From an uncultured Bacteroidales bacterium (lineage in GTDB: Bacteria; Bacteroidota; Bacteroidia; Bacteroidales; Muribaculaceae): a stretch of DNA of 64,000 nt. Shown piece by piece: positions 46,892 through 55,838 of this stretch. Numbering within the stretch: position 1 is the stretch's first letter; each line of letters begins with the position of its first letter. The stretch lies in the NCBI GenBank assembly GCA_902774055.1, contig CACYGX010000014.1, forward strand, positions 20,086 through 84,085, read 5' to 3'. The position numbers and the translations under genes are program-made. The notes beneath the pieces are model-generated. The model was given only the letters and a program-made list of their open reading frames with translations, did no database searches and was not told the origin of the DNA.

Positions 46892-48799
46892 GTGAAAATA
46901 CTTTCTATTAACGACCTCAATAACTTGAGGAAGCGTGCGCAACAGGCATTAGCGCTGCGCGAGGAAAGTTCTGACCAGTCGTCAGAGCAGTGTTGTGGTC
47001 TTGCAACAGGAGCCGAGCACCTGCAGGTGCTGTGCTGCGGCGGTACTGGTTGCAAGGCTTCAAACAGCCACAAAATCGTAGATAACCTGAATGCTTGCCT
47101 TGAGGAGAATGGCATTGCCGACAAGGTGGATGTCATTACCACGGGTTGCTTCGGTTTCTGCGAGAAGGGTCCCATCGTGAAGATTATCCCCGACAACACC
47201 TTCTACACTCAGGTGAAGCCCGAGGATGCTGCCGAAATCGTTAAGGAACACATCATTGGTGGCCGTCGCGTGGAGCGTCTGCTCTATGTTGACCCCAAGA
47301 CCAACAAGACGGTGAGCGACAGCAAGCACATGGACTTTTATCGCAAGCAGATGCGTATCGCCTTGCGTAACTGCGGTCTCATCGACCCCGAGAACATTGA
47401 GGAATACATTGCCCGTGACGGTTATCAGGGTATTGCTAACGCACTGCTCAACCAGACCCCCGAAGAGGTGATTGAGATCATCAAGACCTCAGGTCTGCGT
47501 GGACGTGGTGGTGCTGGCTTCCCCACCGGTATGAAGTGGGGCTTTGCCCGCGGTTATGAAGCCGATGAGAAATATGTGGTCTGCAACGCTGACGAGGGTG
47601 ACCCCGGTGCTTTCATGGATCGCTCCATCATGGAGGGTGACCCCAACTCGGTGATCGAGGCAATGACCGTCTGCGGTTACTGCATCAACTCCCACAAGGG
47701 TCTGATCTACATCCGCGCTGAGTATCCCCTGGCTGTACACCGCCTGAAGATTGCTATCCAGCAGGCTCGTGAATATGGCTTGCTCGGCAAGAGGATCCTG
47801 GGTACCGACTTCGACTTTGATATCGAGATCCGCTACGGTGCTGGTGCATTCGTTTGCGGTGAGGAGACCGCCCTTATCCACTCGATGGAGGGTAAGCGTG
47901 GTGAGCCCACCTTGAAGCCTCCCTTCCCCGCCGAGGCCGGTTATAACATGAAGCCCACCAACGTGAACAACGTTGAGACCCTAGCTAATGTGCCCATCAT
48001 CCTGACCAAGGGCGCTGACTGGTTTGCCTCAATCGGCACCGAGAAGAGCAAGGGTACCAAGGTATTCGCGCTGGCCGGTAAGATTAATAATGTGGGCCTT
48101 ATCGAGGTTCCCATGGGTACCACCCTGCGTGAGATCATCTACGACATCGGTGGTGGCGTGAAGAACGGTAAGGAGTTCAAGGCTGTGCAGACTGGTGGCC
48201 CCTCGGGTGGCTGCTTGACTCAGAAGCACCTTGATACTCCCATCGACTATGAACACCTTACTGCTGCGGGCTCAATGATGGGTTCTGGCGGTATGATTGT
48301 CATGGACGAGGACGACTGTATGGTAAGCGTGGCCAAGTTCTATCTCGAGTTCACTTGTGATGAGAGCTGTGGTAAGTGCACGCCTTGCCGCATTGGTAAC
48401 AAGCGCATGCTTGAGATCCTGACCCGCATCACCGAGGGTAAGGGCACCATGGAAGATTTGGACCGACTCAAAGAACTTGGCGAAATCATCAAGGACACCG
48501 CCCTGTGCGGTCTGGGTCAGACCTCTCCCAATCCTGTGTTATCGACTATCAACAACTTCTGGGACGAGTATGTGGAGCACGTGAAGCAGCACACCTGCCG
48601 CGCTAAGCAGTGCAAGGCCCTCGTGACCTACAGCATCGAAGCTTCGAAGTGTAAGGGTTGCGGTGCCTGCGCTCGCAAGTGCCCCGCTAACGCCATCATC
48701 GGCGATATTCGTAAGCCTCACATTATTAACCCCTTCGAGTGCATCCGCTGCGGTATGTGTAAGTCCAATTGCCGCTTCGACGCCATCTCGGTTTATTAA
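46892..48799 (+). CDS. hydB: NADH-binding subunit HydB of a trimeric bifurcating [FeFe]-hydrogenase (NuoF-like)
   Basis: Flavin and NAD(H) subunit that, with HydA and HydC, couples NADH and reduced ferredoxin to H2. GTG start, 635 residues. Order: thioredoxin-like [2Fe-2S] domain (residues 43-157; Cys49, Cys54, Cys86, Cys90), NuoF core with the FMN/NADH glycine-rich 'GLRGRGGAGFPTGMKW' (201-216) and 'NADEGDPGAF', SLBB domain, NuoF [4Fe-4S] 'ESCGKCTPCR', and a C-terminal two-cluster ferredoxin ('CKGCGACARKCP', 'CIRCGMCKSNC'). This architecture is that of Thermotoga-type HydB. HydA follows 14 bases later. Confidence 0.93.
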   Translation: MKILSINDLNNLRKRAQQALALREESSDQSSEQCCGLATGAEHLQVLCCGGTGCKASNSHKIVDNLNACLEENGIADKVDVITTGCFGFCEKGPIVKIIPDNTFYTQVKPEDAAEIVKEHIIGGRRVERLLYVDPKTNKTVSDSKHMDFYRKQMRIALRNCGLIDPENIEEYIARDGYQGIANALLNQTPEEVIEIIKTSGLRGRGGAGFPTGMKWGFARGYEADEKYVVCNADEGDPGAFMDRSIMEGDPNSVIEAMTVCGYCINSHKGLIYIRAEYPLAVHRLKIAIQQAREYGLLGKRILGTDFDFDIEIRYGAGAFVCGEETALIHSMEGKRGEPTLKPPFPAEAGYNMKPTNVNNVETLANVPIILTKGADWFASIGTEKSKGTKVFALAGKINNVGLIEVPMGTTLREIIYDIGGGVKNGKEFKAVQTGGPSGGCLTQKHLDTPIDYEHLTAAGSMMGSGGMIVMDEDDCMVSVAKFYLEFTCDESCGKCTPCRIGNKRMLEILTRITEGKGTMEDLDRLKELGEIIKDTALCGLGQTSPNPVLSTINNFWDEYVEHVKQHTCRAKQCKALVTYSIEASKCKGCGACARKCPANAIIGDIRKPHIINPFECIRCGMCKSNCRFDAISVY

Positions 48800-48813
48800 A
48801 TTTCGATAGCATC

Positions 48814-50583
48814 ATGGAAGAAAAGAATATGATCACTTTGACGATTGATAAACACGAGGTAACTGTTCCCGCAGGGACCATGCTGCTCGACGCTGCTAAG
48901 ACTGTCGGCATCAGCATTCCCACCCTGTGCCACATTGACCTGGAGGGTACCTGTGTACAGAATATGCCCGCCTCGTGCCGCATTTGTGTCGTTGAGATTG
49001 AGGGCCGCCGCAATCTGGCTCCCGCCTGCGCTACCCGCGTGACCCCGGGCATGGTGGTTCACACCAACAGCGCCCGCGTTATCCGCGCCCGCAAGACCGT
49101 TGCCGAGTTGATGCTTAGCGACCATCCCAACGATTGCTTGACTTGCCCCAAGTGCAGTGACTGTGAGCTGCAGCGCCTGGTAATGCGCTTCAACATCCGT
49201 CAGATGCCGTATAACGGCGGCGAACAGAGCGTTCGCAAGCAGGAGCTCACTCCCGCTATCTCGCGCAACATGGAGAAGTGTGTTTACTGCCGCCGTTGTG
49301 AGAGCGTCTGCAACAACGTGCAGTCGGTTGGCGTGCTGAGCGCTATCCGCCGTGGTTTCAACACCACCATCGCTCCCACCTTCGACAAGATGTTCACCGA
49401 CACCAACTGTACCTACTGCGGTCAGTGTGTTGCTGTATGTCCCACTGGCGCCCTCACCGAGCACGACTATACCAACCAACTCATGGACGACCTCACCAAC
49501 CCCGACAAGGTGGTTGTAGCTCAGCCTGCTCCCGCCGTACGTTTCGCACTGGGCGAGGAATTTGGCATGAAGCCTGGCACTATCGTGACTGGCAAGATGG
49601 CTACCGCATTGCGTGACCTCGGCTTTGACTATGCATTCGACACCGACTTCGCTGCCGACCTCACCATCATGGAGGAAGGTACCGAGATCCTGCAACGCCT
49701 CAACAAGTTCCTTGCTGGCGATAAGGACGTGAAGTTGCCGATTATGACTTCGTGCTGTCCCGCATGGGTGAACTTCTATGAGCACGAATTCCCCGATCTG
49801 CTGGATTATCCCTCGACTGCCAAGTCGCCCGCTCAGATGTTTGGCGCTGTTGCCAAGACCTACTGGGCCGAGAAGATGGGTATCCCCCGCGAGAAACTCG
49901 TGGTTGTTTCCATTATGCCCTGCTTGGCTAAGAAGTACGAGGCTGGTCGTGAAGAGTTCAAGGTGGATGGCAATCCCGACGTGGACTACAGCATCTCGAC
50001 CCGCGAGTTGGGCCGCCTGATCAAGCGTGCCAACATCGACTTCGTCAACCTGCCCGAAAGCGACTTTGACTCGCCCCTCGGCGAATCGACTGGTGCTGGT
50101 GCCATCTTCGGTATCACCGGTGGTGTGATGGAGGCTGCTCTGCGTACCGTCTATGAGGTACACACTGGCAAGACCCTGCCGCATCTCGAGTTCAACGATG
50201 TGCGTGGCTTTGAGGGTATTAAGGAGGCCACTATCGACCTCAACGGATTTGAACTGAAGGTCTGCGTAGCTCACACCCTGAGCAACGCCCGCAAGGTGAT
50301 GAATGCCCTGCGTGCTGGCAAGCTCAACTACCATGTGGTTGAGGTGATGGCATGTCCTGGTGGTTGCATCGGCGGTGCTGGTCAGCCCTACCACCACGGC
50401 AATATTGAGATCTTGAAGGCACGCGCTGCTGCCGTCTACCGCGAGGACGAGGGCAAGAAACTGCGCAAGAGCCATGAGAATCCCGATATCCAGAAGCTCT
50501 ATAAGGAATTCCTGGGTGAGCCCTGTGGCGAGAAATCTCACCACCTGCTTCACACGCATTATTTCGATAAGTCCATTCATTAA
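48814..50583 (+). CDS. hydA: Catalytic [FeFe]-hydrogenase subunit HydA
   Basis: H-cluster subunit that makes or takes up H2. From the ATG at 48814 it has 589 residues: [2Fe-2S] domain (Cys39, Cys55, Cys58, Cys72), His-Cys3 [4Fe-4S] site (His104, Cys108, Cys111, Cys117), two [4Fe-4S] clusters ('CVYCRRCESVC' at 156-166; 'CTYCGQCVAVC' at 199-209), and the H-cluster motifs L1 'TSCCPAWV' (312-319), L2 'MPCLAKKYE' and L3 'EVMACPGGCIGGAG'. A small-subunit-like tail ends the protein. An upstream frame to 48769 overlaps hydB and is rejected. All signature Cys are present, so the enzyme should be active. It belongs with HydB and HydC (group A3-type). Confidence 0.95.
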   Translation: MEEKNMITLTIDKHEVTVPAGTMLLDAAKTVGISIPTLCHIDLEGTCVQNMPASCRICVVEIEGRRNLAPACATRVTPGMVVHTNSARVIRARKTVAELMLSDHPNDCLTCPKCSDCELQRLVMRFNIRQMPYNGGEQSVRKQELTPAISRNMEKCVYCRRCESVCNNVQSVGVLSAIRRGFNTTIAPTFDKMFTDTNCTYCGQCVAVCPTGALTEHDYTNQLMDDLTNPDKVVVAQPAPAVRFALGEEFGMKPGTIVTGKMATALRDLGFDYAFDTDFAADLTIMEEGTEILQRLNKFLAGDKDVKLPIMTSCCPAWVNFYEHEFPDLLDYPSTAKSPAQMFGAVAKTYWAEKMGIPREKLVVVSIMPCLAKKYEAGREEFKVDGNPDVDYSISTRELGRLIKRANIDFVNLPESDFDSPLGESTGAGAIFGITGGVMEAALRTVYEVHTGKTLPHLEFNDVRGFEGIKEATIDLNGFELKVCVAHTLSNARKVMNALRAGKLNYHVVEVMACPGGCIGGAGQPYHHGNIEILKARAAAVYREDEGKKLRKSHENPDIQKLYKEFLGEPCGEKSHHLLHTHYFDKSIH

Positions 50584-50606
50584 TCGACTAAAACATCAAT
50601 TACGAT

Positions 50607-51101
50607 ATGAAGAAGAAAGAAGAAATCAAACTGGCGTGTACCGTTGTTCAACAGGTTGAGGAAATCTGCGACAAGCACGGCAATAAGCCCGGTGAATTGA
50701 TTAACGTGCTGCACGAGTGCCAGGCACTGCACGGCTATCTCCCCGAGGAGATGCAGCGCATCATCGCCCGCAAGCTGGGTGTGCCCGCCTCTAAGGTCTA
50801 TGGCGTGGTTACATTCTACTCGTTCTTCACCATGACCCCCAAGGGCAAGCACCCGATTTCGGTCTGCCTGGGTACCGCTTGCTATGTGCGTGGTTCCGAG
50901 CGTCTGCTTGAGGAAATCAAGCGCATCTTGGGCATCGAGGTGGGTGAGACGACCCCCGATGGCAAGTTCTCGCTCGACTGCCTGCGTTGCGTGGGTGCCT
51001 GCGGTCTTGCTCCCGTTGTCATGATTGGCGAGCACGTGTATGGCCGTCTTGATGTCAAGGACGTTCGTCAGATCCTCGACAACATCGCCGCCAACGATTG
51101 A
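50607..51101 (+). CDS. hydC: HydC subunit of trimeric hydrogenase (NuoE-like [2Fe-2S] protein)
   Basis: Small electron-transfer subunit of 164 residues with the thioredoxin-like ferredoxin fold of NuoE. It has an N-terminal helical bundle ('LINVLHECQALHGYLP') and four cluster Cys in 'CLGTACYVRG' and 'CLRCVGACGLAP'. It starts 23 bases after hydA, so hydB-hydA-hydC is one operon. The gene order B-A-C is a simple variant of the HydABC set. A terminator follows at 51125. Confidence 0.93.
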   Translation: MKKKEEIKLACTVVQQVEEICDKHGNKPGELINVLHECQALHGYLPEEMQRIIARKLGVPASKVYGVVTFYSFFTMTPKGKHPISVCLGTACYVRGSERLLEEIKRILGIEVGETTPDGKFSLDCLRCVGACGLAPVVMIGEHVYGRLDVKDVRQILDNIAAND

Positions 51102-51124: not shown

Positions 51125-51163
51125 AAGGAACAGGAGACCATTTCAAGGTTTCCTGTCCTTTTT
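51125..51163 (+). terminator. Terminator after hydBAC
   Basis: AAGGAACAGGAGACC (51125-51139) pairs with GGTTTCCTGTCCTT (51147-51160) with one bulge, followed by T-rich sequence. It separates hydC from the next, self-promoted hydrogenase gene. Confidence 0.8.
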
Positions 51164-51198: not shown

Positions 51199-51229
51199 TT
51201 GCAAGATTGGCAGAAAACTCGTAATTTTG
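51199..51229 (+). promoter_or_regulatory. Promoter of the fused hydrogenase gene (TTG-N20-TAATTTTG)
   Basis: TTG at 51199-51201, a 20-base spacer, TAATTTTG at 51222-51229. It gives this gene independent control from hydBAC. The leader is about 60 bases. Confidence 0.65.
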
Positions 51230-51295: not shown

Positions 51296-53101
51296 ATGGA
51301 TTCTCAACATAATAAGGCATCAAACATGACTGATGGTAAAGTGCAATCAGACAATTCAACCGAGGCATACGGTTTGATTGCTAACGCCCACATCCAGGTG
51401 CTGTGCTGCTGTGGAACGGCATGTTATGGCTCCGGCAGCCTTAAAATCATAGATAATTTTATTCGCGTTATCGCTGAATATGGCTTAGGCAGCCGTGTTG
51501 ACGTCGTTGCAACGGGTTGCTTTGGCTTCTGTGCCAAAGGTCCCATTGTCAGAATCATGCCCGACAACACCACCTATGTCCAGGTCCACCCCGAGGATGT
51601 AGAGGATATCGTCAAGACGCATATCATCGATGGCCGTCTGCTTGAACGACTGCAATATGTGGACTTTACTGCCCATCAGCTGATGGATGACTCCAAGCAT
51701 TGGAGTTCCTATCCCAAGCAGTTGTCGATGGATGCCATGTTGCATGACTACATCTACGAGATTGGCGGTAAGCGCTTCTTGTCGGTAATGTCCTACAAGA
51801 TTGATGCCGAAAAGTGCAAGGGTTGTGGTGCCTGCAAGCGAGGTTGCTCCAGTCATGCCATTGTTGGCGATTTGCGTCACCCCCATGTGGTTAATCCCTA
51901 TAAGTGCACATGCTGCGGCCATTGTACAACCAAGTGCAAGTTTGACGCTATCCATGGGCCGGTTGGTGCACTCAGCGAGCGTAACTATGTCGAGGATTTG
52001 CTTGTCGATGTGGCTGACCCCAACAAGATTGTCGTGGCTCAGACGGCTCCGGCAGTGCGCTATGCGCTGGGCGAGGAATTCGGTATGCCTCCAGGTACCA
52101 TCGTGACAGGCAAGATGATCGCAGCCTTGCGCAAGGTGGGTGTGGACTATGTATTTGATACCGACTTCGGTGCCGACATCACGATTATGGAGGAGGCTGC
52201 CGAGATTGTCGACCGCCTGCGCAAATTCATCGCTGGGGACAAGACGGTTCGTATTCCCATCACGACCTCCTGTTGCCCGGCATGGGTCAACTTCTTTGAG
52301 AATGATTATCCCGACTTGAGAGAATATCCCTCGACCTGCAAGTCGCCAGCCCAAATGCTGGGTGCTGTGCTCAAGACCTATTGGGCCCAGCGCATGGGCA
52401 TTCCCCGTGACAAACTGGTTGTGGTCTCGGTCATGCCGTGTCTGTCCAAGAAATATGAATGTGCCCGTGACGAGTTCATCACCGATGGCAATCCCGATGT
52501 GGATTACTCGGTCACCACTATCGAGTTGGCCGAGCTGATAAAGCGCATGAACATCGACTTCGACGCCCTGCAAGACGGCCAGTTTGATTCACCGCTGGGC
52601 GACTCTAGCGGTGCTGGTGCCATCTTCGGTACGACAGGTGGTGTCATGGAGGCTGTTTTGCGTACTGTGTATGAGGAGTTTACAGGACAGGAGTTGGCGC
52701 ATGTCGAATTTGAACAAGTGCGCGGTCTTGACGGTCTCCACGAGGCAACAATCGACCTCAATGGCTTTGAATTGAAGGTTTGTGTGGTTAATACGTTAGC
52801 CAACGCCCGTATTGTGATGGACAAACTGCGGGCTGGTGAACTGGAATATCATGTCATCGAGGTTATGGCGTGTCCTGGTGGTTGCATCGGCGGCACTGGT
52901 CAGCCCTATCACCATGGGGATATCGAAGTCATCAAGGCGCGACAAAGGGCCATTTACAGTGAAGATGTCGGCAAGAAACTGCGCAAGAGCCATGAGAATC
53001 CTGTGATCCAGCGCCTTTACCACGATTTCTTGGGTGAACCCCTTCACGGCAAGGCACACGAGATTCTCCACACCAAATTCCGAGACAAATCTATCTTATA
53101 A
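51296..53101 (+). CDS. Chimeric [FeFe]-hydrogenase: HydB-like redox domains fused to a HydA-like H-cluster domain
   Basis: A 601-residue single-chain hydrogenase. Residues about 30-145 match the thioredoxin-like [2Fe-2S] domain of the neighbouring HydB (Cys38, Cys43, Cys75, Cys79). Residues 165-220 match HydB's C-terminal two-cluster ferredoxin ('CKGCGACKRGC' at 174-184; 'CTCCGHCTTKC' at 204-214). From about 223 ('GALSERNYVED') to the end it matches HydA, with intact L1 'TSCCPAWV' (324-331), L2 'MPCLSKKYE' and L3 'EVMACPGGCIGGTG'. The NADH/FMN core of HydB and the [2Fe-2S] and His-Cys domains of HydA are absent. It probably uses ferredoxin or another carrier rather than NADH. No signal peptide. 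Confidence 0.9.
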   Translation: MDSQHNKASNMTDGKVQSDNSTEAYGLIANAHIQVLCCCGTACYGSGSLKIIDNFIRVIAEYGLGSRVDVVATGCFGFCAKGPIVRIMPDNTTYVQVHPEDVEDIVKTHIIDGRLLERLQYVDFTAHQLMDDSKHWSSYPKQLSMDAMLHDYIYEIGGKRFLSVMSYKIDAEKCKGCGACKRGCSSHAIVGDLRHPHVVNPYKCTCCGHCTTKCKFDAIHGPVGALSERNYVEDLLVDVADPNKIVVAQTAPAVRYALGEEFGMPPGTIVTGKMIAALRKVGVDYVFDTDFGADITIMEEAAEIVDRLRKFIAGDKTVRIPITTSCCPAWVNFFENDYPDLREYPSTCKSPAQMLGAVLKTYWAQRMGIPRDKLVVVSVMPCLSKKYECARDEFITDGNPDVDYSVTTIELAELIKRMNIDFDALQDGQFDSPLGDSSGAGAIFGTTGGVMEAVLRTVYEEFTGQELAHVEFEQVRGLDGLHEATIDLNGFELKVCVVNTLANARIVMDKLRAGELEYHVIEVMACPGGCIGGTGQPYHHGDIEVIKARQRAIYSEDVGKKLRKSHENPVIQRLYHDFLGEPLHGKAHEILHTKFRDKSIL

Positions 53102-53112
53102 CGTACTGCTGG

Positions 53113-54315
53113 TTACGGGAGAGAGACTTTCCCTATGATACCCTTAACATGGGCAATGGTGATGCCGTAGTTGGTCATCGGCACGCCTTGTGCCCTGCAT
53201 TGATCTACACGCGATAACATGAACTTGCGGTTAAACATGCATCCGCCGCAGTGGATGACGAGGTCATAACCCGTCAAATCATTGGGGAAATCCTTGCCGG
53301 CCACGATATCTACGGTCAAACCTTGTCCCACGCGCTGGCGCAGCAAGCGGGGAATCTTTTCACGCCCGATGTCTTCAGCTAGTGGGGCATGTGTGCAGGC
53401 CTCGGCGATGAGCACGCGTGATTGTTCCGTCAAGCGGTTGATAGCAGTTGCACTTTCTACAAAGTACTGGATATCACCCTTGTGTGCGGCCATCAGCACC
53501 GAAAACGAAGTGAGCTTGCTCTCGGCTGGCTTTTTCTGCTCCACAATATCAAAAACCTGTGAGTCGGTGATAATCAACTGTGGTGACTCTCGAAGGGTGG
53601 TCAATGTCTGGTCGATGTCCTCGGTGGTACAACAGATGGCGATGCATCGCTTGTCCATCAGGTCACGAAGGGTCTGTACCTGGGGCAGGATAAGTCGGCC
53701 CTTGGGGGCTTGAGGGTCTTGTGGCATGACAAGCAGTACCGTATCGCCCGCTTGGGCAAGATGACCCGTGAGCGACTGATTGCCGCTTTCAGGCATCAGA
53801 CCTGCCAGTGTCTTTTTCAGTATGTCAAGTCCCGTACCGTTCATGGCACTGACGGGGATGACATCACACCCTAGCCGCTTGGCCATGTCGGTGAGTAGGG
53901 TAGAGGGCACTTCCTGCATCAGGTCCACCTTATTTAATACGGCAGCATAGGGAATATTGGCCTGCTTGAGCAGTCCTGCCCATGCTATCTCGTCGTCGAG
54001 CACGTTTCCCTCTGTCACTATGATGGCTATGTCGGTCTGCTTGATGACTTCACGAGTGCGCCCGGTGCGCAGGTCACCTATCTTGCCACTGTCGTCAAAC
54101 CCTGCAGTGTCAATCAACACACATGGACCCAGAGGAAGAATCTCCATGGACTTCATGACCGGATCGGTGGTTGTACCTGGCACATCGCTCACTAGGGCAA
54201 TCTGTTGTCCAGTGAGGGCATTGATGAGCGACGACTTGCCCGCATTGCGTTTTCCGAACAACGCAATGTGCAACCGCTCCCCCCGAGGAGCCCTACTAAA
54301 AGCTTGCTCTACCAT
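53113..54315 (-). CDS. hydF: [FeFe]-hydrogenase maturation GTPase HydF
   Basis: Scaffold GTPase on which the H-cluster diiron site is assembled and passed to HydA. The 400 residues show a GTPase domain with Walker A 'GKRNAGKS' (21-28), G3 'DTAGFDD' and G4 'NKVD', a dimerisation domain, and a C-terminal cluster-binding domain with 'CTHAP' and 'HCGGCMF' (the CxH...HCxxC ligands). It is convergent with the fused hydrogenase, 11 bases away, and lies downstream of hydG on the same strand with a 107-base gap holding a long inverted repeat. Confidence 0.95.
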   Translation of the reverse strand: MVEQAFSRAPRGERLHIALFGKRNAGKSSLINALTGQQIALVSDVPGTTTDPVMKSMEILPLGPCVLIDTAGFDDSGKIGDLRTGRTREVIKQTDIAIIVTEGNVLDDEIAWAGLLKQANIPYAAVLNKVDLMQEVPSTLLTDMAKRLGCDVIPVSAMNGTGLDILKKTLAGLMPESGNQSLTGHLAQAGDTVLLVMPQDPQAPKGRLILPQVQTLRDLMDKRCIAICCTTEDIDQTLTTLRESPQLIITDSQVFDIVEQKKPAESKLTSFSVLMAAHKGDIQYFVESATAINRLTEQSRVLIAEACTHAPLAEDIGREKIPRLLRQRVGQGLTVDIVAGKDFPNDLTGYDLVIHCGGCMFNRKFMLSRVDQCRAQGVPMTNYGITIAHVKGIIGKVSLP

Positions 54316-54341
54316 GAAAATGACAGTTTTAATAAAAGGAA

Positions 54342-54409
54342 AACAACAAATACAATAATTACAATTATTTGAATATCAGAAAATTGTACTTATTGTATTT
54401 ATTGTTGTT
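54342..54409. repeat. Long AT-rich inverted repeat between hydG and hydF
   Basis: Left arm 54342-54366 and right arm 54382-54409 are reverse complements over about 25 positions with a 3-base gap and one mismatch, around a 15-base loop. It could be an RNA hairpin in the hydG-hydF transcript, a weak terminator or a small mobile remnant. Confidence 0.7.
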
Positions 54410-54422
54410 AATATTAGACGTT

Positions 54423-55838
54423 TTAGAAGTAGAAGTCGCGCTTGCCGCCGGCGATTTCATTGATGTGCTGGGTGGCGATTTCTCGAACGCGTTGGTTCGT
54501 TATCTTGGCCAATTCCTTTTCAATCAAAGCATTGCCTTTGGCAACGGTATCCTCGCTGGCAAAGTCCATGAGGTACTCCTTGAGCGTCATCAGCGCGTTG
54601 GGCGTGCAGATGTCACCAATCTTGCCAGCCTTGCACAGTGCCATGAAGCGGTCGCCAGTGCGTCCCGAACGGTAGCAAGCAGTGCAGAAACTGGGCAGAT
54701 AACCGATAGACAACAACCAATTGATGACCTCGTCGAGGGTGCGTGTGTCGCTCACGTCGAACTGTGCCGTCTCGTCGTGACGCTCGACGGTGGTGTAACC
54801 GCCAACGCTGGTGCGACTGCCGCCGCTAATTTGTGATACGCCCAGGTCAAGCACCTTGGAACGCACGCTTTGGCTCTCGCGGGTCGAGATGATCATGCCA
54901 GTATAAGGCACTGCCAGTCGGATGACGGCGATAATACGGCAGAAGATGTCATCGGGCAGCACATCAGGGAATTCGTCAAGGGTGATGTCCTCGGCAGGGC
55001 AGATGCGCGGCACGCTGATGGTGTGCGGTCCCACGCCGAATTTTGCCTCCAAGTGCTCGGCATGCATGAGCAGACCCACGAAGTCGTAGCGATAGGTGGT
55101 CAGGCCATAGAGTACACCGATGCCAACGTCATCGCATCCACCCATTTGGGCGCGGTCCATTGCCTCGGTGTGGTAGCAATAGTTGCTCTTGGGACCTGTG
55201 GGATGAAGCGCTTCGTAGTTCTTGCGGTTATACGTTTCCTGGAACAGGATATAGGTGCCGATGCCTGCAGCCTTCAGTTTCTCGTAGGCTTCGACTTCGG
55301 TAGCGGCAATGTTCACGTTCAGGCGACGAATTTCGCCGTTGCCCACCTTGGTGTCATAGATAGTGTGGATAGACTCCAAAATGTATTCCAGCGGGTTCAT
55401 CACGGGATGCTCGCCTGCCTCCAGTGCAATGCGCTTGTGACCCATCTTGACCAGAGCCTCGACTTCGGCACGAATTTCGTCCTGTGACAGCTTCTTACGC
55501 GGAATGGTCTTGTTCTTGGCGTGGTAGGGACAATAGACGCAGCCGTTGATGCAATAATTGGATAAGTACAACGGGGCAAACATCACAATGCGGTTGCCGT
55601 AGAAGCGTTGTTTCACCTCGCGTGCCAGTTGCTCGTAGCGCTCGATCAGGTCGGGTTGGTCACAGTCAAGCAGCACGGCAGCCTCGCGGTGGGTCAGTCC
55701 CTTGCACTTGGCTGCTTTTTCAATAATCTCCTCAATCAGAGCACGGTTGCTCTTATTCTTTTCAGCGTAGGCTAGGGTCTCCAGTATCTCGCTATCGTCG
55801 ATGAACTCATCGGCATGATTAGACTTTACATTATACAT
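54423..55838 (-). CDS. hydG: [FeFe]-hydrogenase maturation radical-SAM enzyme HydG
   Basis: Radical-SAM tyrosine lyase that makes CO and CN ligands for the H-cluster. The 471 residues carry the CX3CX2C site 'YCINGCVYCPY' (Cys96, Cys100, Cys103), a TIM barrel with 'RICPAEDI' and 'SQISGGSRTSVGGY', and the C-terminal second-cluster region 'FCTACYRSGRTGDRFM' with CX2C. The second CX2C separates it from ThiH. Its length and C-terminal domain fit HydG. It lies upstream of hydF; hydE is not present in the window. Confidence 0.95.
   Translation of the reverse strand: MYNVKSNHADEFIDDSEILETLAYAEKNKSNRALIEEIIEKAAKCKGLTHREAAVLLDCDQPDLIERYEQLAREVKQRFYGNRIVMFAPLYLSNYCINGCVYCPYHAKNKTIPRKKLSQDEIRAEVEALVKMGHKRIALEAGEHPVMNPLEYILESIHTIYDTKVGNGEIRRLNVNIAATEVEAYEKLKAAGIGTYILFQETYNRKNYEALHPTGPKSNYCYHTEAMDRAQMGGCDDVGIGVLYGLTTYRYDFVGLLMHAEHLEAKFGVGPHTISVPRICPAEDITLDEFPDVLPDDIFCRIIAVIRLAVPYTGMIISTRESQSVRSKVLDLGVSQISGGSRTSVGGYTTVERHDETAQFDVSDTRTLDEVINWLLSIGYLPSFCTACYRSGRTGDRFMALCKAGKIGDICTPNALMTLKEYLMDFASEDTVAKGNALIEKELAKITNQRVREIATQHINEIAGGKRDFYF

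Follow-up and report, generated by a model that had tools for sequence, protein, structure and literature searches.

What does a single-chain [FeFe]-hydrogenase do beside hydBAC? The window, by which we mean the whole 64,000-nucleotide stretch of DNA analysed here, carries a forward-strand ORF (51296-53101) for such an enzyme of 601 residues, as an earlier sequence-only reading had found. The gene sits between hydBAC (46892-51101) and the convergent hydF and hydG (53113-55838), and hydE of the same genome lies on another contig. We asked where the parts of this protein came from, whether it is maintained and what it is likely to do (Table 1).

Table 1. Features of the fusion hydrogenase and its neighbours (positions in the window)
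Feature	Position	Strand	Evidence
Fusion hydrogenase gene	51296..53101	+	ORF, Pfam, own-genome alignments
HydB-derived thioredoxin-like (TRX) [2Fe-2S] domain, residues 30-143, Cys 38/43/75/79	51383..51724	+	PF01257, tree, Cys in 55/55
Linker with ML..YIYEIGG, possible HydB SLBB stub, residues 144-165	51725..51790	+	Alignment to HydB 408-421
HydB-derived 2x[4Fe-4S] ferredoxin in F-domain position, residues 166-219	51791..51952	+	Alignment, tree, Cys conservation
Junction, residues 220-226	51953..51973	+	Alignment with HydA
HydA-derived H-cluster domain and SSU tail, residues 227-601, including stop codon	51974..53101	+	Pfam, tree, motifs
hydB, related to the donor of the TRX and ferredoxin modules	46892..48799	+	Carries GGPSG
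hydA, kin of the H-domain donor	48829..50583	+	NF040763 above cut-off
hydC	50607..51101	+	Pfam
hydF maturase, converging on the fusion gene	53113..54315	-	TIGR03918 above cut-off
hydG maturase	54423..55838	-	TIGR03955 above cut-off
Terminator-like hairpin in the hydC-fusion interval	51130..51156	+	Hairpin scan
Promoter-like TTG-N20-TAATTTTG, Bacteroidetes-type	51199..51229	+	TAnnTTTG conservation

Domain composition

Pfam placed 2Fe-2S_thioredx (PF01257) at residues 31-108, Fer4 at 167-189, Fe_hyd_lg_C at 244-533 and Fe_hyd_SSU at 544-598; in the ferredoxin region, dicluster models matched below their cut-offs and extended to residue 219. The ferredoxin cluster cysteines are 174/177/180/184 and 204/207/210/214. 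Pfam found neither the N-terminal domains of HydA nor the FMN/NADH core (Complex1_51K, NADH_4Fe-4S), the latter being present in HydB. A search of the genome with its own fusion protein returned five matches: the protein itself, HydA (69% identity over fusion residues 200-600), the two ends of HydB (N-terminal, 55% over 17-145; C-terminal, 51% over 158-220) and a weak match on contig C5 (41% over 167-220). The long near-identical stretches with HydA previously described were not seen, the HydA part being only about 69% identical.

A first AlphaFold model was poor over residues 135-227, where the alignment had few rows; a second run reached pLDDT 79 and pTM 0.69, with residues 122-162 below pLDDT 50. 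Foldseek matched the model to known [FeFe]-hydrogenase folds, including CbA5H, the Desulfovibrio desulfuricans enzyme, T. kivui HydA and CpI, with CbA5H and D. desulfuricans the best at about 430-440 columns.

Distribution

The fusion is common within its genus. In a sample of 61 genus genomes (31 of good quality) it occurred in 34 (33 full-length and one cut copy), another 13 matched HydA/HydB but lacked the fusion, and 14 had no match at E 1e-15, so that 13 of the 47 genomes with hyd genes show no fusion. Among 119 family genomes, a match to the fusion protein at 1e-60 was present in six of seven genus members and in 0/112 genomes outside the genus. At the same threshold 238 of 393 order genomes (own genome included) matched, with at most three candidates scored per genome, and, apart from that of the window genome, every match listed begins at residue 146 or later. 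With the TRX-ferredoxin part as query, 3/395 phylum genomes matched at 1e-25, and the match spanned the whole part in the window genome only. The same architecture, sought in other Bacteroidales, was thus found nowhere beyond the genus in the family, order and phylum samples.

A scan of genome contigs, which used two patterns from the fusion's own family and was the sole search to reach phyla beyond Bacteroidota, added depth: the best 80 of its 96 confirmed matches form 71 loci, 56 of which (L071-L126) have the fusion, in two cases as a cut copy. The 54 complete loci and the window make up the set of 55 copies used below. The fusion-bearing MAGs are titled uncultured Muribaculaceae, Prevotellaceae, Porphyromonadaceae or Bacteroidales, and the hosts, where titles give one, are ruminants (goat, sheep, deer, yak, buffalo).

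Joining of the modules

Aligned with HydA, the fusion has seven extra residues directly after the last cluster cysteine; HydA sequence resumes just past HydA's own last cluster cysteine, with PVGAL corresponding to PTGAL in HydA. Within this junction, G221-P222 is fixed in all 55 complete fusions. We read this as the HydB ferredoxin, both cluster motifs included, occupying the place of HydA's F-domain. The second cluster motif (C204-C214) belongs with the HydB ferredoxin, a correction to the earlier reading, which had the HydA match begin at HydA's last cluster motif.

Upstream of the ferredoxin, the linker motif ML..YIYEIGG is invariant in 11/11 aligned copies and resembles HydB 408-421 (MGTTLREIIYDIGG, SLBB region) with order preserved. 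In a shuffle test against HydB, 5 of 2000 shuffled linkers scored as high; with a clade II copy the figure was 42 of 2000. The result is suggestive, not proof, of a short surviving SLBB stub. The sequence-only reading had the NADH/FMN/SLBB core of HydB exactly missing; the FMN/NADH core is indeed absent, and the possible stub makes the exactness doubtful. The HydB segment HVKQHTCRAKQC, directly before the ferredoxin in HydB, was not retained in the fusion; it is perhaps part of a zinc hinge like that described for T. maritima HydB in passages of PMC9499530.

Origin

Trees of the three modules, each with 21 of the 55 fusion rows, grouped every module with the genus's own HydB or HydA, in agreement with a HydB-HydA domain fusion. 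In the H-domain tree (66 rows) the fusion rows form one clade (SH-aLRT 99) and join 25 genus HydA (100, branch 0.32); the 20 HydA from other Bacteroidales stand separately. An unconstrained tree places the fusion inside genus HydA (92), but a tree that holds genus HydA together fits equally (AU p 0.498), so we place the H-domain simply with genus HydA. In the TRX tree (62 rows), poorly resolved and flagged for long branches meeting, the fusion forms one clade (98) in a group (96) with genus HydB and the two nearest outside HydB, and adjoins a single HydB, that of L103 (86). The ferredoxin tree (62 rows, 57 columns), also poorly resolved, again has the fusion as one clade (94), placed inside a group of genus HydB (92). 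These groupings support the view that the fusion is old and home-made, born in or just before the genus from its own hydB and hydA, and they back the local origin earlier put down to duplication and recombination.

The fusion sequences fall into two deep clades, in broad agreement with HydA; L103, whose HydA groups with L137, L128 and L131, is discordant. Presence changes at least eight times on the HydA tree (36 with, 13 without). Together with the absences within the genus, this indicates that the fusion is dispensable or is often missed in incomplete MAGs, and the patchiness may reflect loss, such misses or movement.

In a single MAG (L073:1678-5358), which has a small deletion near the end of hydB, hydB and hydA run on as one open frame, possibly a picture of the first step to such fusions, possibly an assembly error.

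Conservation and selection

All 12 Fe-S cysteines are invariant in the 55 complete copies. The H-cluster motifs L1, L2 and L3 are intact in the window, as had been stated, and in all 55. Equally invariant are E300, E303, R307, C326 and S350, which we take to be proton path residues; C326 we also assume to be the cysteine near the H-cluster that bears on sensory hydrogenases.

Mean dN/dS of the fusion, with dS near saturation, was 0.058 in clade I and 0.101 in clade II, compared with 0.043/0.085 for HydA and 0.036/0.081 for HydB. These values come from pairs with dS between 0 and 2 in chosen sets of eight (clade I) and seven (clade II) loci, namely 20/28 and 10/21 pairs for the fusion, 28/28 and 20/21 for HydA, and 28/28 and 13/21 for HydB. 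The fusion is maintained under purifying selection. A decaying recombination by-product or an assembly artefact, as the patchy presence and the other in-frame hydB-hydA junction in L073 might suggest, is hardly credible for a gene found in 34/61 genomes and two deep clades, with dN/dS of 0.06-0.10 and invariant ligands.

Between the clades, mean identity of the TRX domain is 48% in the fusion versus 83% in HydB, and that of the H-domain 70% in the fusion versus 85% in HydA. Eight H-domain residues are fixed in 55/55 fusions but seldom or never occur in 70 HydA. Three of the eight, T323, C348 and T534, adjoin the H-cluster or KSP motifs and perhaps tune catalysis.

Locus organization and partners

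The sequence-only reading gave the fusion gene its own promoter, and conservation of TAnnTTTG upstream bears this out, best in clade I. The combination of TTG and TAnnTTTG is, we assume, the Bacteroidetes-type promoter consensus. TAnnTTTG was present in all 29 of the clade I rows examined (position -72 to -74 in 26; -28, -47 and -62 in the other three) and in 14/21 clade II rows examined, at scattered positions; the rows counted are 29 of 32 and 21 of 23, the rest lacking an anchored start or enough upstream sequence. The hairpin scan found two terminator-like sites against 2.4 expected by chance, so the hairpin upstream of the fusion gene is weak alone.

Across loci the fusion gene mostly adjoins hydBAC, and in four loci without the fusion the hydC-hydF gap is 79-87 bases. 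One reading of the position beside hydBAC is that the fusion is a second, alternative catalytic subunit: its thioredoxin-like domain would bind HydC or HydBC, and the enzyme would draw on the bifurcating complex. This reading is helped by a report, in passages of PMC8880783, that in a related enzyme the HydB N-terminal domain stabilises the C-terminal domain of HydC. We consider docking quite unlikely: the fusion TRX has drifted between clades far more than that of HydB, the HydA N-terminal domains are absent, and at L100, L116 and L120 there is no hyd gene within 8 kb on either side of the fusion.

The same TRX divergence could instead mean a different partner. The enzyme would then serve uptake, or a special [2Fe-2S] or thiol partner reached through the TRX domain, oxidising H2 to reduce that partner, and the position of T323, C348 and T534 beside the catalytic motifs would suit such a change. 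This, too, seems unlikely, as the ORFs read around the fusion at 12 loci contained no partner gene common to all, and the TRX domain retains only its four ligand cysteines and C37. Loci L103, L104 and L105 have one downstream gene in common.

Other features were seen at individual loci. A weak HydG-like match (21-24%, perhaps hydE) adjoins hydG at the clade II loci L108, L109, L111-L115, L118, L119, L121, L123 and L124. One MAG has a gene between hydF and hydG (L101:10820-11644) with a P-loop/zeta-toxin-like look from its first residues. In some species the interval from hydC to the fusion gene holds a large ORF whose first residues suggest a protein that is perhaps secreted (L074:4413-7661, L101:3395-6967 and L107:5938-7962).

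Class membership

The fusion scored 468 bits with TIGR02512 ([FeFe]-hydrogenase group A; cut-off 406) and 167 bits with TIGR04105 (group B; cut-off 450). With NF040763 (NADH-dependent group A6 HydA) it scored 577.5 bits, below 765, the match covering only model positions 143-571. Lacking the FMN/NADH core, it falls outside the electron-bifurcating HydABC (A3). It has the two-[4Fe-4S] F-domain and H-domain layout of the M2 modular class by sequence, but its PF01257 domain (31-108) departs from the absence of any further N-terminal domain in that class. We expect that surveys by group label would tally the fusion simply as group A.

A separate transcript beside a catalytic hydrogenase could also fit a sensory, group C-like enzyme (HydS), an option the sequence-only reading had raised. 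Sensory hydrogenases are reported in passages of PMC8924675 to have lost a cysteine near the H-cluster. The fusion retains what we take to be this catalytic cysteine, C326, in 55/55 copies, Pfam found no PAS or signalling domain, and TIGR02512 places the protein in group A; a sensory role is thus very unlikely.

Predicted function

Having weighed these alternatives, we consider it rather likely that the fusion is a stand-alone, non-bifurcating, ferredoxin-linked and H2-evolving [FeFe]-hydrogenase that works beside HydABC. The earlier prediction of an active enzyme that is not NADH-linked agrees with its intact motifs and with the lack of the FMN/NADH core.

Donor, direction and role we infer as follows. 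hydB would have lost its FMN/NADH core, its ferredoxin domain replacing HydA's F-domain before the HydA catalytic domain. Ferredoxin reduced by PFOR would pass electrons to the TRX [2Fe-2S] cluster, the two [4Fe-4S] clusters or both, and these would feed the H-cluster directly to form H2. Ferredoxin could in this way be drained without NADH, for example when NADH is short. The seven-residue junction might alter cluster spacing, and the model gives no cofactor distances.

In passages of two papers (PMC9499530; PMC8880783) the C-terminal clusters of HydB are the proposed site of electron exchange with ferredoxin, and the route to them from FMN runs through the HydC [2Fe-2S] and a HydB [2Fe-2S]. 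One of them (PMC8880783) places the relay in a penta-coordinated cluster rather than in the N-terminal thioredoxin-like one, which, according to passages of PMC11406978, some call a dead end. Because the thioredoxin-like cluster is disputed, the role of the ferredoxin domain is better founded than that of the TRX domain. S. wolfei HydB, which has no C-terminal clusters, is described in passages of PMC11406978 as making H2 from NADH without ferredoxin; the fusion, with a ferredoxin domain and H-domain and no FMN/NADH core, looks like the complement of that case. GGPSG is given in passages of PMC7311640 as a mark of bifurcating beta subunits, and since HydB in the window contains it, the neighbouring HydABC is predicted to require both ferredoxin and NADH.

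PFOR was found in 52/61 genus genomes at E 1e-100, 47 of them above cut-off. In the window genome PFOR is in pieces (C43:4-1265 and C50:3082-5299), perhaps through assembly breaks, because many relatives have it whole. RnfC at E 1e-60 was found in 0/61 genus genomes, compared with 42/112 other family genomes.

The genus without RnfC is also the sole carrier of strong matches to this hydrogenase (1e-60) in the 119-genome family sample, and a swap of ferredoxin outlets, Rnf for hydrogenase, is possible. Another 70/112 family genomes have neither RnfC nor a 1e-60 match to the fusion protein, and the contrast is in effect one evolutionary event.

Going further, we tentatively propose, at somewhat less than even confidence, a natural 'bifurcation bypass' beside the intact complex in a genus with no Rnf detected. 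The ferredoxin branch, made up of the bridge [4Fe-4S] clusters and possibly also the [2Fe-2S] of the TRX domain, would be wired directly to the H-cluster with the flavin bifurcation core cut out, and by using one enzyme or the other the cell would adjust its ferredoxin:NADH balance.

The fusion amounts to a natural domain swap that sets the proposed ferredoxin port of bifurcating hydrogenases directly before the H-cluster. Measuring the enzyme would test the assignment of that port and could settle the part played by the disputed thioredoxin-like cluster. If the reading is true, ruminant-gut Bacteroidales have a lineage-specific H2 route that bears on the H2 feeding methanogens.

Comparison with known hydrogenases

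A literature search whose scope was passages of papers other than the founding classifications found no described hydrogenase with HydB TRX and ferredoxin domains on a HydA H-domain; M2 and M3 variants with other extra domains are described in passages of PMC6984386 and PMC11406978. The bifurcating HydABC (group A3/Bfu) is related by descent, all three modules grouping with its HydB and HydA. The fusion differs in being one chain without the FMN/NADH core, HydC or the HydA N-terminal clusters.

By layout it resembles the monomeric M2 class, a two-[4Fe-4S] F-domain followed by an H-domain as in Sm-HydA and the M. elsdenii enzyme (passages of PMC6984386), perhaps with the same link to ferredoxin. 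Its F-domain, however, comes from HydB, it has an extra N-terminal thioredoxin-like [2Fe-2S] domain, and it arose separately, from a HydABC. The fused hydrogenase of Nyctotherus ovalis also joins alpha and beta subunits in one chain; according to passages of PMC7311640 it has alpha, beta and gamma equivalents and is proposed to be NADH-dependent, whereas the fusion described here has no NADH part. CbA5H of Clostridium beijerinckii (PDB 8zqd, 9f46) shares the F-domain and H-domain, came first in Foldseek and, with 9rkm, headed a PDB sequence search. Its sequence match covers only fusion residues 171-595, Foldseek gave 44% identity, and no TRX domain was matched.
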